From contig NZ_CP060139.1 in assembly GCF_014524565.1 (NCBI RefSeq), forward strand, positions 434,001-498,000: a DNA stretch of 64,000 nucleotides, given 5' to 3'. Origin of the DNA: Croceimicrobium hydrocarbonivorans. GTDB lineage: Bacteria; Bacteroidota; Bacteroidia; Flavobacteriales; Schleiferiaceae. Position numbers and translations under genes: made by a program. The notes under the pieces were generated by a model. It was not told the DNA's origin. It made no database searches and worked only from the letters and a program-made list of their open reading frames with translations. Positions 54,556-64,000 of the stretch are shown here, piece after piece. The first letter of the stretch is position 1. Each line of letters opens with the position of its first letter.

Positions 54556-56055
54556 ATGGAAACTAAGGCCCTGGCCCCAAAAATTGAGGGCACCCAATGG
54601 GAAGCTCATTTCGATAGCTATCGCGAGAACATCGTAGGTCATAATGCCGAATTTGTAGGTCCCTTCGGGCCCAAGAAAATACTCTATGCCGATTGGATTG
54701 CCAGCGGCCGGTTGTATGAACCCATAGAGCGTAAAATGCTCGAGGAGATTGGGCCCATGGTAGCCAATACCCATACCGAAACCTCCTATACCGGCAGTAT
54801 TATGACTAAGGCTTATCATCAAGCCAAATTGGTGATTAAGCAGCATGTGAATGCTAATCCTGATGATGTTTTAATTCCTACCGGTACCGGGATGACCGGG
54901 GCAGTCCTTAAGTTTCAACGCATCTTAGGCTTAAAATTACCAGAGCAGTTTAAAGGGAAGTTTGAAATTGAAGATCAATTTCGTCCGGTGGTTTTTATCA
55001 GCCACATGGAACATCATTCCAATCAAACTTCCTGGCTAGAAACCATCGTTGACCTTGTAATAGTTGGTTATAATGATGAGGGTTTAATGGACCTTGATCA
55101 CTTGGATCAACTCCTGGAACAGTATAAAGACCGTCCTTATAAAATTGCCTGCATTACTTCATGTAGTAATGTTACCGGCATTTTTACTCCCTATACGGAG
55201 GTAGCTAAGAAAATGCATGCGGCCGGCGGCTATTGTTTTGTTGACTTTGCCGCTTCGGGTCCTTATGTGGATATTGATATGCATCCCGCAGAAGAGGGCG
55301 CCCATTTAGATGCCATCTTCTTTTCGCCCCATAAGTTTTTGGGAGGCCCTGGTACGCCCGGGGTCTTAATCTTTAATTCGCAATTATACCGCAATAGCGT
55401 ACCCGATCATCCGGGTGGGGGTACCGTTTTATGGACCGACCCCTGGGGCGGACGCTATTATATTGAGGATATTGAGTCTCGCGAAGATGGTGGCACCCCC
55501 GGTTTCTTGCAAACCATAAAGGCCGCCTTTGCCATGCAATTGAAAGACGAAATTTCTGTGCAGGCCATCAAAGCCCGGGAAAAGGAATTGCTCAATTATA
55601 TCTTCGATCGCTTGGAGAAAATGAAAGGCATGGTAATTCTGGCCGGTCATATCCGCGAACGAATTGGCGCTCTGTCTTTCTATTTGGAAGGGGTGCACTA
55701 TAATTTGGTGGTGCAATTACTAAATGACCTTTACGGCATTCAAACTCGTGGTGGATGCAGCTGTGCCGGGACCTATGGTCATTACCTCTTGCATTTGGAT
55801 AAAGAGAGCAGTCGTAAAACCATGGACATCGTTTTAGGGGGTGATATTTCCTTCCGTCCAGGTTGGGTGCGCCTTTCCGTACACCCTACTTTAACCGATG
55901 AAGAGGCTATTTTCATTTGCGATGCCATTGAAGATATTGCCAATAATTGGGAAGAATACGCCAAAGAATACCATTTCGAAAAAGGAAGCAACCGCTTTAT
56001 TCACCTGGGAAGTGCTGATACCGGCACCGAATTGGTGAACAATTGGTTTCATTAA
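54556..56055 (+). CDS. Class V aminotransferase-fold PLP enzyme (cysteine desulfurase/selenocysteine lyase-like)
   Basis: A 499-residue PLP enzyme of the class V fold. The PLP lysine lies in FFSPHKFLGGPG (about residue 260), preceded by VDFAASGPYVDIDMH; the block GTGMTGAVLKFQRI replaces the usual N-terminal substrate loop. RGGCSCAGTYGHYLL near 400 contains two Cys that could accept sulfur. About 100 residues longer than IscS, so it is a separate subgroup of the desulfurase-like family with unknown substrate. Its TAA shares a base with the ATG of the next cysteine desulfurase gene. Confidence 0.85.
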   Translation: METKALAPKIEGTQWEAHFDSYRENIVGHNAEFVGPFGPKKILYADWIASGRLYEPIERKMLEEIGPMVANTHTETSYTGSIMTKAYHQAKLVIKQHVNANPDDVLIPTGTGMTGAVLKFQRILGLKLPEQFKGKFEIEDQFRPVVFISHMEHHSNQTSWLETIVDLVIVGYNDEGLMDLDHLDQLLEQYKDRPYKIACITSCSNVTGIFTPYTEVAKKMHAAGGYCFVDFAASGPYVDIDMHPAEEGAHLDAIFFSPHKFLGGPGTPGVLIFNSQLYRNSVPDHPGGGTVLWTDPWGGRYYIEDIESREDGGTPGFLQTIKAAFAMQLKDEISVQAIKAREKELLNYIFDRLEKMKGMVILAGHIRERIGALSFYLEGVHYNLVVQLLNDLYGIQTRGGCSCAGTYGHYLLHLDKESSRKTMDIVLGGDISFRPGWVRLSVHPTLTDEEAIFICDAIEDIANNWEEYAKEYHFEKGSNRFIHLGSADTGTELVNNWFH

Positions 56056-57191
56056 TGGAATTAATTTATCTGGATAATGCGGCCTCTACCCCTCTAAGGA
56101 AAGAGGTAAAAGAATATATGCTGGAGCTGATGGATACTGCCTATGGCAATCCCTCCAGTACGCATAGTCAAGGCAGAAAGGCCAAAGTAATTTTAGAGGC
56201 CAGTCGTAAAAGCATTGCCCGCAATCTCAATTGCCTTCCGGCGGAAATCGTTTTTTGCTCTGGAGGAACTGAGGGAGATAATGCAGCCATCAGTTTGGCT
56301 TTACGCGATTTAAAAGTGAAGCGCATTATTACCTCACCACTGGAACATCATGCGGTGCTAAAGGCGGCTGAAAAGTGGTCCCAAGCCTTTGAGGCCGAGC
56401 TCGTTCTCCTGAAGGTAGATCCCAAGGGGCGCATTGACTTTGAGCAATTAGAGCAACTATTAAGCAGCGACTCTACTCCTACCCTGGTTTCTTTAATGCA
56501 TGGCAATAATGAAATCGGCAACCTATTGGATTTAGAAAAGACAGGGAATCTTTGTCGGCAATACGGCGCCTGGCTGCACAGTGATACAGTGCAAACCGTG
56601 GGTCATTTTCCGCTTTCGCTGAAGGATCTGCCTGTTGACTTTGCCACCGCTTCGGCCCATAAGTTTTATGGCCCAAAAGGCGTGGGATTCTTGTATATCG
56701 ATCGTCGGGTTAAAGTAAGCTCATTTATAACAGGTGGTGCTCAGGAACGTGGCTTACGTGGTGGGACGGAAAGTATAGTTCAAGTGGGGGCATTAGCCAA
56801 AGCATTGGATTTAGCCTATCAGAGTTTGGAGGAAGAGCGTGCCCATATCGAAGCGCTTAAAACCCAACTTTGGCAAGGACTAAAGGGAATATTCCCTAAG
56901 ATTTATGCCAATGGCTTATCAGACACCGAAGAAAGTCTATATACCGTTTTAAGCGTAAGTATCCCTGAACTTTCGGAAGACAGCATGTTGCTCTTTAATC
57001 TCGACTTAAAAGGATTAGCCGTTTCTGGCGGTAGCGCTTGTTCATCAGGAAGCGTGCAAAAATCGCATGTTATTGCGGCCATGGACCCCGAACATACCGA
57101 TCCAGTAGTTCGCTTTTCCATTGGCAAAGACAATACTGCTCAAGATATTGAGGAGGCTCTGGCCATTATGGCCGATTTAAAACAAGCTTAA
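56055..57191 (+). CDS. Cysteine desulfurase (NifS/IscS-like)
   Basis: A 378-residue PLP enzyme that takes sulfur from cysteine for Fe-S clusters and thiolated tRNA. MELIYLDNAASTPL at the start, the HAVLKAAEKW His loop, PLP Lys in TASAHKFYGPKGVGF (about 198) and the persulfide Cys in SGGSACSSGS (about 330). The ATG at 56055 overlaps the previous stop (TAATG); an in-frame TTG at 56043 is less likely. No iscU or other Fe-S genes are adjacent. It pairs with the upstream class V enzyme. Confidence 0.92.
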   Translation: MELIYLDNAASTPLRKEVKEYMLELMDTAYGNPSSTHSQGRKAKVILEASRKSIARNLNCLPAEIVFCSGGTEGDNAAISLALRDLKVKRIITSPLEHHAVLKAAEKWSQAFEAELVLLKVDPKGRIDFEQLEQLLSSDSTPTLVSLMHGNNEIGNLLDLEKTGNLCRQYGAWLHSDTVQTVGHFPLSLKDLPVDFATASAHKFYGPKGVGFLYIDRRVKVSSFITGGAQERGLRGGTESIVQVGALAKALDLAYQSLEEERAHIEALKTQLWQGLKGIFPKIYANGLSDTEESLYTVLSVSIPELSEDSMLLFNLDLKGLAVSGGSACSSGSVQKSHVIAAMDPEHTDPVVRFSIGKDNTAQDIEEALAIMADLKQA

Positions 57192-59559: not shown

Positions 59560-60780
59560 ATGGACCGCAATTTTGATCTTATTGTAATCGGAGGTGGCAT
59601 TGTTGGCTTAGCTACGGCCTATAAATACCAGATGGCCTTTCCTGGGCATCGAATTGCAATTCTGGAAAAAGAAGATCATTTAGGCGCTCATCAAACCGGC
59701 CGAAATTCTGGGGTAATTCATTCGGGCATCTATTATAAGCCTGGTAGCTTCAAAGCGCTTAACTGCACCAATGGTCGGAAGCAAATTGTGGTTTTTGCCA
59801 AAGAACATGGGGTGGCACATGACATTTGCGGGAAAATCATTCTAGCTACTGAAGAAAAGGAACTGCCCATTTTACAAGGCATTTTTGAAAAAGGTCAGGC
59901 TAATCAGATTGAAGGTATTGAGATGATTGGTCCGGATGCCATTCGTGATATTGAACCCTTTAGTAGAGGCATCAAAGCGATTCGGGTACCAGTAACGGGA
60001 ATTATCGACTATGTTGGCTTTTGTAAAAAATTGGTGGAACTGATTAAAGCTCGCAATCCTAAAAGTGAATTATTCCTAAGCACTCAATTTCTGGAAAGCT
60101 TTCGCGAAGATGGCAAAGAAGGAATCCGCACCAATAAGGGCAATTTTTATACCCAGCATAAGATCTTTTGTGCCGGTTTACAAAGTGATCGATTGGCCCG
60201 AAAAGAAGGGGCTAAACCCGATTTGAAAATTGTAGGCTTCCGTGGGGATTATTACGAATTAACGGAAGAAGCCCGGCACAAAGTAAAGCACTTGATTTAT
60301 CCGGTTCCCGACCCTGATTTCCCTTTCCTGGGCGTGCATTTTACGCGCATGGTAGATGGTAGCGTGGAATGCGGACCGAATGCTGTTTTCTCCTTTAAGC
60401 GTGAAGGCTACAGTCCTAAATCCTTTAGCTTTAAAGATACCTTTGAATCCCTTACTTACCCTGGAACCTGGAAACTATTCAGCCGCCATGCCGGACAAGG
60501 AATGGAAGAAATGAAACGGGCTTTTTCCAAAAAGCTCTTTTTAGATGCCTTACGGAAAATGATTCCTTATTTACAGATGGAAGATATTCGCCCGGTACGC
60601 GCTGGTGTTAGGGCTCAGGCCTTAAAGCACAATGGCGATCTGGTGGATGATTTTAAAATCGAAAAATTCGGGAATTCGGTGCATGTCTTAAATGCCCCTT
60701 CTCCTGCCGCTACGGCCAGCTTAGCCATTGCCGATGAAATTCTCGACATGGCTGGATTTGTTCCTAAGCAAAAGGATTAA
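59560..60780 (+). CDS. lhgO: L-2-hydroxyglutarate oxidase/dehydrogenase (LhgO)
   Basis: A 406-residue FAD flavoenzyme that oxidises L-2-hydroxyglutarate to 2-oxoglutarate, feeding electrons to the quinone pool. Rossmann motif FDLIVIGGGIVGLATAYKY (about residue 5), HQTGRNSGVIHSGIYY (about 46, FAD and substrate site), and the C-terminal RPVRAGVRAQAL block with APSPAATASLAIA. Length fits E. coli LhgO (422 aa). It starts 26 nt after the MBL gene; a TACCTTCG box at 59539-59546 may serve as promoter. Its stop overlaps the convergent T9SS gene. Confidence 0.92.
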   Translation: MDRNFDLIVIGGGIVGLATAYKYQMAFPGHRIAILEKEDHLGAHQTGRNSGVIHSGIYYKPGSFKALNCTNGRKQIVVFAKEHGVAHDICGKIILATEEKELPILQGIFEKGQANQIEGIEMIGPDAIRDIEPFSRGIKAIRVPVTGIIDYVGFCKKLVELIKARNPKSELFLSTQFLESFREDGKEGIRTNKGNFYTQHKIFCAGLQSDRLARKEGAKPDLKIVGFRGDYYELTEEARHKVKHLIYPVPDPDFPFLGVHFTRMVDGSVECGPNAVFSFKREGYSPKSFSFKDTFESLTYPGTWKLFSRHAGQGMEEMKRAFSKKLFLDALRKMIPYLQMEDIRPVRAGVRAQALKHNGDLVDDFKIEKFGNSVHVLNAPSPAATASLAIADEILDMAGFVPKQKD

Positions 60781-61625
60781 TAAACCAGAACGCGAATTTC
60801 CTCGCTGCTCTCTGCATTGTGAAGGCGAGCGATATACATGCCCTTCTCCAATTCTTGAAGGTCTAAGCGACTTTGTCCTTTCTCGTAATCTTGCTCCCAA
60901 ACCAATGCACCACCTAAGCTGAAAATTTGCAGCTGAGCCTTGCCTTCGGGAATTTCAAAATAGAGTGTTTCATCTAATTGACGTAGGCTAAACACTTGCT
61001 CTTCCGCTTCAGGCAAACCAATCCAAGCTGAACCTTCACCGGCAACAATGCCTTCGCCATATTGCTCATTATAGCCATAGTCCTTAATGGTAATAGACTT
61101 ATAATCAGCGGCCACATCAACACGGATCCAACCATAGTAATTACGGAGGGTATCATCTACTTCCGCGCGAAAGCGTACTCCAATTAGGCCGTTTAAAGCG
61201 CCATTGAACTTATCGTTTGGACTGCCGGTTCCATTGCTAATCATCGAGAGCTGACCTAAGGAATAGCTCCCTCCACTGCCCTTGTAAACCGAGTTGGGTC
61301 CAATACTATCTCCAGGACTCAGATTGAAGGGATAAGCGTAATTACCATAGTCAAGGCCAATAATAGAATTGGCGGCAACTCCTCGTGACTGCACGAAATT
61401 GCCACTCACATTAAAAATGGAAGTATCTACATATTGAATAAAACGATAGTCAACAACCCCAAGGCTGTCTTCATCAATATCCAGATCCCAATAGGCATTA
61501 TTGGTATTCAGAGTGGTATCAGCTAAATCAACATACTTGATTTGAGCATCGGCTCCATAGGCAGCTAATAAACCGCTAATGGCTCCTAAATACTTTAAAC
61601 TCTCCTTTTGTTTCTTATCCTTCAT
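60777..61625 (-). CDS. Secreted protein with T9SS type A sorting domain
   Basis: A 282-residue exported protein: signal peptide ending near YGADAQ (residue 27), a central beta-rich region of about 170 residues with DxD-type acidic loops, and a C-terminal sorting domain of about 75 residues (LQIFSLGGALVWEQDYEKGQ, then LQELEKGMYIARL and a short basic end) that directs passage through the type IX secretion system and, usually, anchoring on the cell surface. The central region has no recognised domain. It shows that the organism encodes T9SS substrates, in line with gldI at 35.5 kb. Confidence 0.88.
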   Translation of the reverse strand: MKDKKQKESLKYLGAISGLLAAYGADAQIKYVDLADTTLNTNNAYWDLDIDEDSLGVVDYRFIQYVDTSIFNVSGNFVQSRGVAANSIIGLDYGNYAYPFNLSPGDSIGPNSVYKGSGGSYSLGQLSMISNGTGSPNDKFNGALNGLIGVRFRAEVDDTLRNYYGWIRVDVAADYKSITIKDYGYNEQYGEGIVAGEGSAWIGLPEAEEQVFSLRQLDETLYFEIPEGKAQLQIFSLGGALVWEQDYEKGQSRLDLQELEKGMYIARLHNAESSEEIRVLVY

Positions 61626-61664: not shown

Positions 61665-64000
61665 CTAGCCAATTTTGTTTCGATGCAATTGCGGATCAAC
61701 TGTCTTTTCCCACTGTTCCCGGCTAAGTTCATGGCCTAAAAACGCAGTGATTTCCTGCAATGCCTCACCTTTTAATAAAGCTCGATACGAAACCTCCATC
61801 CATTCAATATGCGGTTGTTGATCCAGCCAAAGCTGAAAACGCTGTCTTTCCCTTTCTAATTGTTGACCTTTTTGAAATGGGAAATTTTCCAAACTAGCGG
61901 CCTCTCCTTTCATCTTGGCTTGGGAGAGGATGATCTCAAGTAAGGGCCTTTCCATCCACAAGACCTTATACTTTCGATCGGCCGGTAAATAAGGTAATAG
62001 CGGTGCCACTACTTTTAAGGCTTTGCCATCGCTTGGAGGAAGTTCCGCCCCTTGCGGCAAACTTTTCAAGGCTTCCCATTCGTAGTAGCCTTTGGGATTG
62101 TGACCATCTGCCTCACGCACCTCATCTTTCAACAATTCCAAACCACTGGCTTCCAAAAGGGCCATCATAAAACTGGTACCCGACCTAGGGAATCCACTTA
62201 CTATGATACTACTGGCTTTGGGGCTTTTGCCGATTAATTCATCTCTTAAAGCCAAGGCCTTTTGATGTTTGGGTGCCTTCCGTAAACACAGTTGCAATGC
62301 CTTCCGGCAGGATACGCTATCCCCCGATTGATGATAGTGTAAGGCCCATAGATAATGCAAATGGGGTTGATGCATCTTTAGGCTCAAGGCCTGATTGGCC
62401 CATATTTCAAAATCCTCATAAGCCCCTTTGGCAAAGGCCACCTGAGCTTTTCCATTTAAAGCCGGACTGTATTCCTGATTTAGGGCTAATGCGCGATCAA
62501 ATTGTTGGTCTGCTCCCTCCCATTGACCAGCCAGGAATAAGGCATGCCCCATTTCCTGATACAGAGCAGGACTTTGCAAGCCACTTTGTTCTAGGGCCTG
62601 CATTTCCACCAAGGACTTTTCGGCTTGCCCAGCTTGCAGTATGGCCAGGGCATGGCAAAAACGCAATTGTAAATCGGCCTGAAATTCTGGTTTCAATCCA
62701 GTCCAAAAGCGCTCCCAAAGAGCCGAATCTCCACCATTAAGAATTAATCGCGCCTTTAATATATACCAGCGATACGCCTGATTACTGTTCAACCAATGCT
62801 GATCACAAATTTGCAAGGCTTCAGCATAGGCTCCCACTTCTCTCAGGCTAATCGCCTTATTGTAATCCTGTTCTTCACGAATGCCCTTTTGTTGAGTATT
62901 AGCTAAATCGATGTATTGCAATTCCTCCAAATCGCGCAAAGCATCATTTTGACCTTGCTGGGGATGAACTTCTAAAAACTGTGCATTATTAATAAGATCC
63001 CAGGTGGGTAGCCAACTGGCGGCACGCTTATTTCGAAATAGCTCCTTAATAATTCGCCCTTCCATATCCTTTGCCAGTGGTAATTGGAAATGATGCAAAA
63101 TAGTAGGTACGATATCCAGCAGGCTTATGCCATAAAGCTTTTGATTCGCTATAAAATCAGGTCCAGTAGCGGCAAAGACGCCAAATGCGCGGTGTTCTGA
63201 AGCGGGGGCTGCCGGTATATTCGGGAGTTCCTTTTGCCTTCCGGCGGAAAGCTCAAAGCCATGATCTGAAATCAAGATCAAATTATGATCCTTAGCTTTA
63301 TTGAGCATACTTCCCAGCATAGCGTCATGCCAGCGATAGGCAGCTCTAATTATATAATGATAGTGTTTGAAATCTGTATCCGAAATCTGCGCTTGCTGAG
63401 GAGGATAATAAGCGGCGCCTAAATGCTGTAATTGATCCAGGGCTTCGAAGTAGAACATTCGGCATTGGGCTTCCTTTTGCAACATCGCCATGGCACAATG
63501 GAACTGCATTCTGCTTCGCATTAATATGCGTCCTACTTTTTGAACTAAGGGATCATCCAGTAAAAGCTCGGCAGGCATTTCGGGGAAAAAGCCCGCCAGA
63601 ATTTCGGGACTTAAATCTTGGGCCTTTTCTCTTTCGGAACTTAAAAAGTCACCCCAGTCTTCGGGATAGAATTGCCCTTGCAAATCACCTTCGGCGAAAG
63701 CCAAATTGGAAATCATATCACCTCGGATCGCTTCCACCGGATTGGAAGGCCACCAGTTTAAAACCTGGCAAGAAATCCCGGCTTCCGAAAGGATATTCCA
63801 AATTGCCGGCACTTGGCGTTGCAAACTCGAAATAGCTCGAGGGCCCTCCAAGCTTTCTTCTACAAATCCTAAAATGCCATGTTCGTGGGCCCTTTTCCCG
63901 CTAGCCACCGAAGTCCATAATAATGGACTAATCATAGGCTGTAAGCTGGCCAGTGCCCCATCACTCCCATTGGCTAATAGCATTTGGAATTGGGGCATTT
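61665..64000 (-). CDS. Alkaline phosphatase-superfamily/TPR/sulfotransferase fusion (5' end outside window)
   Basis: At least 777 residues, N-terminus off the right edge; the visible MPQFQMLLANG start is an internal strand of the phosphodiesterase domain. Residues 1-330: a type I phosphodiesterase/nucleotide pyrophosphatase-like domain with the nucleophile region ISPLLWTSVASGKRAHEHGILGF and ISDHGFELSAGR, the second metal-site motif. Residues 370-590: TPR units. Residues 605-777: a sulfotransferase-type P-loop domain (IVSGFPRSGTSFMMALLEASG binds PAPS phosphate). An intact sulfotransferase and phosphatase pair in one chain suggests building or editing of a secreted glycan, but this is inference. 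Confidence 0.82.
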   Translation of the reverse strand, partial: MPQFQMLLANGSDGALASLQPMISPLLWTSVASGKRAHEHGILGFVEESLEGPRAISSLQRQVPAIWNILSEAGISCQVLNWWPSNPVEAIRGDMISNLAFAEGDLQGQFYPEDWGDFLSSEREKAQDLSPEILAGFFPEMPAELLLDDPLVQKVGRILMRSRMQFHCAMAMLQKEAQCRMFYFEALDQLQHLGAAYYPPQQAQISDTDFKHYHYIIRAAYRWHDAMLGSMLNKAKDHNLILISDHGFELSAGRQKELPNIPAAPASEHRAFGVFAATGPDFIANQKLYGISLLDIVPTILHHFQLPLAKDMEGRIIKELFRNKRAASWLPTWDLINNAQFLEVHPQQGQNDALRDLEELQYIDLANTQQKGIREEQDYNKAISLREVGAYAEALQICDQHWLNSNQAYRWYILKARLILNGGDSALWERFWTGLKPEFQADLQLRFCHALAILQAGQAEKSLVEMQALEQSGLQSPALYQEMGHALFLAGQWEGADQQFDRALALNQEYSPALNGKAQVAFAKGAYEDFEIWANQALSLKMHQPHLHYLWALHYHQSGDSVSCRKALQLCLRKAPKHQKALALRDELIGKSPKASSIIVSGFPRSGTSFMMALLEASGLELLKDEVREADGHNPKGYYEWEALKSLPQGAELPPSDGKALKVVAPLLPYLPADRKYKVLWMERPLLEIILSQAKMKGEAASLENFPFQKGQQLERERQRFQLWLDQQPHIEWMEVSYRALLKGEALQEITAFLGHELSREQWEKTVDPQLHRNKIG

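Follow-up and report, generated by a model that had tools for sequence, protein, structure and literature searches.

A phosphodiesterase-TPR-sulfotransferase fusion protein in Croceimicrobium hydrocarbonivorans and its genomic association with secreted proteins carrying a tyrosine-bearing leader

Introduction

What might a bacterium do with one polypeptide that joins a phosphodiesterase, a TPR array and a sulfotransferase? The question is raised by a reading frame, here called F0, that runs off the end of the 64,000-nucleotide stretch of the Croceimicrobium hydrocarbonivorans genome analyzed here (the window), and which a first-pass annotation, made from the letters of this stretch, had read as a three-domain fusion suggestive of the sulfation or processing of a polymer. 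Each of the three domains is already known. A literature search, with most subscription papers outside its reach, gave none on the fusion among the entries listed; to our knowledge no described system combines the F0 chain with the partner protein and the leader reported below, and we know of very few worked cases of bacterial protein sulfation.

Results

One reading frame with three domains

F0 is encoded on the minus strand, with its stop codon at 61665-61667 and the frame open up to the window end. The N-terminus lies outside the window, as had been proposed: the next 121 bases complete the frame and provide the true start, either a GTG at genome position 498121 (818 aa) or an ATG seven codons later (811 aa). 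An internal start that would restore a separate gene is unlikely, because relatives align across the N-terminal GWDGAEW motif. The coordinates and the single frame hold, the domains follow in the order phosphodiesterase (PDE), TPR, sulfotransferase, and the motifs WTSVASGKRAHEHG, SDHGF and FPRSGTSFMM are all found in the translation. The features are:

61665..64000 and 121 bases past the window end (G000:C1:495665-498121), minus strand: F0 fusion gene, 818 aa, from the frame and the next bases
62922..64000, minus strand: AlkP-superfamily PDE domain, residues ~14-400 (F0 residues 1-40 lie outside the window), from Pfam, Foldseek and conservation
62232..62891, minus strand: TPR-type helical array, about residues 411-630, from sub-cut-off TPR hits and helical hairpins in the model
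61668..62213, minus strand: PAPS-type sulfotransferase domain, residues 637-818, with PRSGTS loop and R725/S733, from profile, model and fold search

The model of the whole chain has a mean pLDDT of 85.6 and a pTM of 0.72, and a near relative with 92% identity is found in Flavobacteriales bacterium UBA7878. No signal peptide was seen by eye at the F0 start (MTDPKKHNQSAPILLLGWDG), and for this reason F0 is taken to be probably cytosolic.

The Pfam model Phosphodiest (PF01663) matches F0 with 2.6e-20 and 73.7 bits against a cut-off of 23, and the best PDB matches found by Foldseek for the whole F0 model are NPP phosphodiesterases. Residues G24, W25, D26, D229, H233, D286, H287 and H310 are invariant in 20 aligned family sequences. 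We take D26, T70, D229, H233, D286, H287 and H310 to be the NPP-type nucleophile and two-metal ligand positions; this string reads DTDHDHH in 18/20 family rows and DSDHDHH in 2/20, residue 70 being Thr in F0 and Ser in those two. F0 thus resembles the type I phosphodiesterase/NPP family (PF01663; Xanthomonas NPP, ENPPs) in fold and, with the residue roles so assumed, in the Thr nucleophile position and the two-metal ligand set; it differs in its fusion to TPR and sulfotransferase domains and in having no visible signal peptide, and its identity to the solved NPPs listed by Foldseek is 11-15%. The activity predicted from sequence is phosphodiester or nucleotide hydrolysis. Sulfatases carry the formylglycine motif C/S-x-P-x-R, which is absent from F0, the corresponding site reading WTSVASGKR. 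The earlier suggestion of “opposing chemistries” in one chain was therefore not quite right: with its Thr/Ser nucleophile and two-metal set the first domain is NPP-type, not a sulfatase, and so does not obviously remove what the sulfotransferase adds.

TPR models of Pfam match F0 below their own cut-offs (the best, TPR_2, with 24.9 bits against 27), and residues ~411-630 of the F0 model form a run of helical hairpins with pLDDT mostly 80-95. Sulfotransfer_3 is likewise below its cut-off (0.0023; 18.6 bits against 27), and a sequence search of the PDB with the single F0 protein gave no match. Family profiles were used in place of that search; among PDB sequences, SULT1D1 (6e-5) and TPST1 (7.5e-5) are the best matches of the sulfotransferase-domain profile. 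Modeled from 19 relatives, the domain reaches a pLDDT of 87.2, and 12 of the 13 Foldseek matches of this family model in the PDB at E<=0.001 are sulfotransferases, one being a sugar kinase. Pfam alone was insufficient for the sulfotransferase assignment made in the first-pass annotation, and it is the modeled fold of the family that supports it.

PRSGTS, D666, R669, K703, R725 and S733 are invariant in the 20 aligned family sequences, as are R646, G648 and T649 (20/20 rows). PRSGTS is presumably the 5'-phosphosulfate loop, and R725 and S733 presumably the 3'-phosphate-binding Arg and Ser; an eight-residue spacing of this pair is common to known PAPS sulfotransferases. These enzymes (SULTs, Teg12/StaL, tyrosylprotein sulfotransferases) share with F0 the fold, the PRSGTS loop and the Arg/Ser pair eight apart, whereas the F0 domain is short (about 180 aa), stands at the C-terminus of a three-domain chain and falls under the Pfam cut-off. 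Judged by its motifs and model, F0 would transfer sulfonate from PAPS; what points to tyrosine as the acceptor is only the remote sequence match to protein-tyrosine sulfotransferase 1.

Distribution of the fusion and of its separate domains

Twenty-two of the 39 genomes near the window's that were surveyed in its order match F0, two of them (G026, G036) in the TPR part only. The whole chain is found in 18 of the 24 genomes of the window's family, own genome included; two further genomes (G011, G021) have cut-short copies and four have none, and other families of the order gave 0/15. A survey of 395 genomes of the phylum with the whole-protein profile, scoring at most two candidates per genome, returned two full-length matches (own genome and G100, the latter from a different order within that class) and one PDE-only match; repeated with the PDE profile, it returned the same three genomes. 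This shallow survey made the fusion seem rare, an impression corrected by a search of the order to which G100 belongs. The PDE domain of F0 is found there in 33/198 genomes sampled, and the sulfotransferase is in frame in 39/39 ORFs examined (36/36 distinct), a count that leaves out two short-frame matches (G454, 350 aa; G440, 185 aa). The domain order is thus kept across two orders, and the conserved unit envisaged in the first-pass annotation is not a one-off fusion.

Plasmid searches with the PDE part gave 34 records in one search and 55 in another, with the PDE part only; the organisms named among the matches listed (30 of the 55 in the second search) are haloarchaea and related archaea. 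The sulfotransferase part was not found in plasmids or phages. In IMG/VR viral contigs the sulfotransferase part occurs alone, with no PDE part found. These stand-alone PRSGTS sulfotransferase-like proteins (L038-L067; one, L042, in a 341-kb contig) belong to the same domain family, with 27-39% identity in matches spanning most of the domain, and differ from F0 in the size of their ORFs (about 165-417 aa, the right frame picked) and in the PDE motif, present in 0/30 loci. On the haloarchaeal plasmids L088 and L089, the PDE-only relatives adjoin flippase or glycosyltransferase genes. A separate 383-aa ORF in G551 (L207:1340-2491) has an F0-type sulfotransferase domain (7e-40) and no PDE match, and lies near two F0 copies.

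The formation of PAPS needs an APS kinase. A strong APS kinase match is present in 13/15 family genomes searched, own genome included, versus 1/9 other-order genomes, where one further genome has a marginal match; G006 and G011 have F0 and no APS kinase match, which counts against the sulfation reading, and G007 has an APS kinase match without F0. Five other Sulfotransfer_3 matches are located in the own genome (G000:C1, near 567123, 593433, 2865045, 3092238 and 3170375), some of them, by eye, among polysaccharide-like genes.

Duplicated copies with split active sites

F0-type genes occur in two or more copies in six genomes, which belong to families f70 and f80. Five genomes supply six “b” copies whose N-terminus is readable, and in all six the PDE ligands are gone (for example, GVTFQGY for DTDHDHH) while PRSGTS and D-R-D-K-R-S are kept; of a seventh, partial “b” copy (G527) only an intact sulfotransferase is visible. 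Conversely, DTDHDHH is kept in six of six “a” copies and the sulfotransferase site has drifted in five of the six: the motif is broken in G431 (KRSGTS, N-N-D-K-R-N) and G450 (KEGGDH, D-D-D-K-R-N), and altered in G551 (RRAGTS, D-K-D-K-R-S); G517 and G527 differ from it by a single loop residue, and G532 has it intact. In a tree calculated by a quick method, “a” and “b” form sister clades of six rows each, with support of 100 for each and 87 for the pair; one duplication followed by complementary loss would be the simplest account of these sequences. From the complementary loss, both F0 sites seem to be needed, though not in one chain.

A secreted partner protein

The gene downstream of F0 in the window encodes a protein that we call F1:

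60777..61625, minus strand: F1, 282 aa, with a signal peptide carrying the leader KESLKYLGAISGLL, an F1 domain and a type A T9SS sorting tail; follows F0 on the same strand after 39 bases

Its signal peptide was recognized by eye, and its tail scores 29.2 bits on the T9SS type A model TIGR04183 (cut-off 23), which is passed by 2/5 F1 proteins scanned. Linkage was counted at 40 loci showing the F0 frame, L086 (G011) being excluded since F0 is cut there. In these related, non-independent genomes, an F1-domain protein lies within four ORFs of F0 at 29/40 loci, in varying orientations, and at 22/40 F1 immediately follows F0 on its strand; the remaining 11/40 show no F1-domain protein over that distance, which counts against F1 as the client of F0. 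Family loci have F1 next downstream on the same strand in 16/19 cases, three genes on in one and not at all in two; the gaps between F0 and F1 measure 20-78 bases, and in L082 the two seem to overlap. The other order contributes 21 loci (L087 and 20 more), of which 12 have an F1-domain protein within four ORFs, in varying orientation, and six have it next downstream on the same strand, with an overlap of 4 bases in L193; the F1 matches near F0 in L087 and L203 are weak. Nine loci of that order lack F1 by the four-ORF rule; L189 and L201 end with the contig at or just after F0, and the match in L204 falls just under the rule (9e-4). In G010 and G012, F1 is located elsewhere than F0. Because just two F1 matches in the own genome, among the matches listed, span most of the F1 profile, the adjacency of F0 and F1 is far beyond chance, although kin genomes do not count as independent.

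The candidate F1 relative beside the F0 of G100 is unsure, its match (1.7e-6 overall) coming mostly from the sorting tail. F1-domain proteins without the leader occur in genomes without F0, so F1 does not need F0. F1-domain matches in genomes of family f37 and in G350 and G428 lie at loci without a visible F0 among the ORFs listed. At the f37 loci (L141-L143) they are in proteins of 710-782 aa within a conserved cluster, with no F0 seen, which also includes short ORFs that begin with an RRQFIRTMG- or RRIVLKALG-type stretch. The family genome G007, which has no F0, encodes an F1 protein two genes from a QKSGTS-loop ORF that is sulfotransferase-like by eye (L145:6979-9950).

A small upstream ORF and other neighbors

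A pattern search over about 650 bases found a small ORF just upstream of F0, on the same strand, in 22/40 loci (6/19 family loci, L087 and 15/20 other-order loci). The encoded protein (IPPEGSLGLLALG) has the core IPPEGSLGLLALGxxGLKAWRxxR, and the loci are:

L073, L075, L079, L081, L083, L084, L087, L189-L193, L195, L196, L198-L200, L203, L204, L206-L208: small ORF upstream of F0, same strand as F0

Neither the own locus nor those of its five closest relatives gave a match, but G006, a member of the same genus, has this ORF. The product may be a small partner protein; an identity as PEP-CTERM was rejected on scanning 7 ORFs (PF07589/PFE-CTERM, where the highest scores were 15.8 bits, cut-off 20.7, and 15.6 bits, cut-off 24).

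At one locus (G022:C99; L084:1944-7212), a second F0 copy heads a same-strand run of genes for a PF05118 Asp/Asn hydroxylase, then a PF03567 sulfotransferase and finally a protein that joins F1 and cadherin domains and has the tyrosine run YYYYYYYYGYYSYYGG; the arrangement is suggestive of a protein-modification operon, at a single locus and not in general. The Asp/Asn hydroxylase was dismissed as a constant partner of F0, being found at this one locus only among the ORFs searched, and so was poly-tyrosine as a general trait of F1: one of the proteins listed, that of G022:C99, has the long run, and two others have short Tyr-rich bits. Elsewhere in the window, at 54556-57191, two adjacent ORFs of 499 and 382 aa look by eye like class V aminotransferases.

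A tyrosine-bearing leader that follows F0

Most F1 proteins at F0 loci have a leader, a signal-peptide pattern of about K-L-x-x-Y-S/T/G-x-x-A (KLxxYsAxA). One Tyr is fixed in 27/27 leaders of profile A5, which were hand-picked for a clear cleavage-like end, others being left out. Applied at E<=0.01 to 24 genomes that are partly the source of the profile, A5 found the leader in 10/12 with F0 versus 0/12 without, the misses being G543 (0.0102) and G609 (0.67). In a further 40 genomes, from which no row of the profile came, the result was 17/20 with F0 versus 0/20 without, or 12/15 with F0 when the five of the 20 that share a genus with the profile source (G451, G484, G504, G525, G535) are excluded; here the misses were G443 (0.035), G012 (0.012) and G540 (none), and matches above 0.01 were seen in two genomes without F0 (G448, 0.029; G065, 0.066).

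Some leader proteins are located away from F0. Nearly all leader ORFs that were read also have the F1 domain; it was not seen in three (L249, L250, L251), of which one contains masked bases. Among F1-domain proteins of genomes with F0, 40/45 score at least 11 bits on the leader (27 of these are profile rows), and the five below are L070|17773, L087, L194, L203 and one of L202. The leader was matched in 0/8 F1-domain proteins outside F0-bearing loci and genomes; seven of the eight are from genomes without F0 (one start-cut) and one is an unlinked paralog in the own genome, giving seven readable starts. In family f19, the Tyr pattern may, by eye, precede a separate signal peptide. A loose regular expression for the leader separated the groups poorly (35/41, 6/11, 3/8), whereas profile A5 separated them. 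The Tyr near the mature start of F1 was rejected as a proven modification site, as several F1 proteins are without it, so that no modification site is fixed. The leader may be an ordinary inherited feature of the signal peptide.

Discussion

The reading we prefer, tentatively and with a probability of roughly 0.4, is that F0 is a cytosolic enzyme which modifies F1-type clients before their export, combining sulfonation from PAPS with a PDE step and with binding by the TPR array. The TPR array would bind client polypeptides, perhaps helped by contact with the leader; the C-terminal domain would transfer sulfonate from PAPS to the clients in the cytosol; and the AlkP-superfamily domain would act within that pathway by hydrolyzing a phosphate ester, which could be the PAP left over from sulfonation or a phospho-group carried by the client. 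Proteins of the F1 family, with the leader inside or before the signal peptide, would be the likeliest clients, and once modified these would be exported by Sec and then by the type IX secretion system. This reading draws on the conserved fusion and its motifs, the linkage to F1, the co-occurrence of leader and F0, the split duplicates, the APS kinase matches as a source of PAPS, the gene run in G022, and the PDB sequence matches to SULT1D1 and TPST1. A bolder reading, somewhat unlikely, is that the modification is leader-guided: a cytosolic sulfotransferase-PDE, sometimes with a small conserved co-encoded protein, would recognize the tyrosine-bearing KLxxYsAxA in the signal peptide and sulfate its clients ahead of type IX secretion, so that sulfated proteins would reach the surface.

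The main rival to F1 as client is a glycan substrate: F0 would make or edit a sulfated glycan or lipid, such as a surface polysaccharide or glycolipid, and F1 would bind or anchor there, the two being linked by their place of action. Two of the three f19 loci, those in G100 and G543, have members of one glycosyltransferase family near F0, the PDE relatives on the two haloarchaeal plasmids viewed have the flippase or glycosyltransferase neighbors described above, and by eye a PDE-only relative in G184 lies among glycosyltransferase-like ORFs and the gene after F0 in G012 is nucleotide-sugar-enzyme-like. Such glycan-type genes lend the polymer processing proposed in the first-pass annotation some support, which is weaker in that a secreted T9SS family is the neighbor that most loci share in both orders. 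In an overall view of the neighbors, F1 and the small ORF are the only families seen to be common to F0 loci of both orders, and a glycan or lipid substrate leaves unexplained why the leader, which is part of the signal peptide, follows F0; we consider this alternative somewhat unlikely.

It could also be that the P-loop domain no longer transfers sulfate and F0 is a scaffold or regulator, with the PDE alone at work and the linkage to F1 reflecting co-regulation of a surface programme. The sub-cut-off match to Sulfotransfer_3 would agree with this, as would the two “a” copies that lost their sulfotransferase motifs although the gene was retained. However, the sulfotransferase residues from R646 to S733 listed above are kept not only in 20/20 family rows, they persist in the six “b” copies that have lost their PDE ligands, the opposite of what is expected of a dispensable sulfotransferase, and make an inactive domain very improbable. 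Nor does gene order by itself explain the locus well. Other genes keep their place in the window's family, a divergent MacB-like permease being near F0 at 14 loci and an oxidase-like F3 at 9; the frequency of the permease indicates that gene order there is conserved beyond F1, as might be expected if F0 were an ordinary promiscuous fusion of a PDE with a TPR-sulfotransferase and the adjacency of F1 were inherited without a functional tie. Yet the F0-F1 linkage persists in two orders despite different outer genes and orientations, and the leader co-occurs with F0 at unlinked loci also, which renders a mere promiscuous fusion quite improbable.

For the modification of F1-type clients by F0, a comparison is offered by the RaxST system, in which we know of no PDE or TPR part. 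RaxST-type bacterial tyrosine sulfation, with a sulfotransferase tied to an exported product, would work like F0, and unlike F0 it is reported to be tied to a putative type I secretion system (PMC4216712).

The duplicated “a” and “b” copies are a natural mutant series for telling apart the two activities of F0. In the F0-F1 pair itself, selection on both sites of the enzyme is visible, the candidate substrates form a defined family, and the leader accompanies F0 from genome to genome, so that sulfation before type IX export would be testable by mass spectrometry in one strain.
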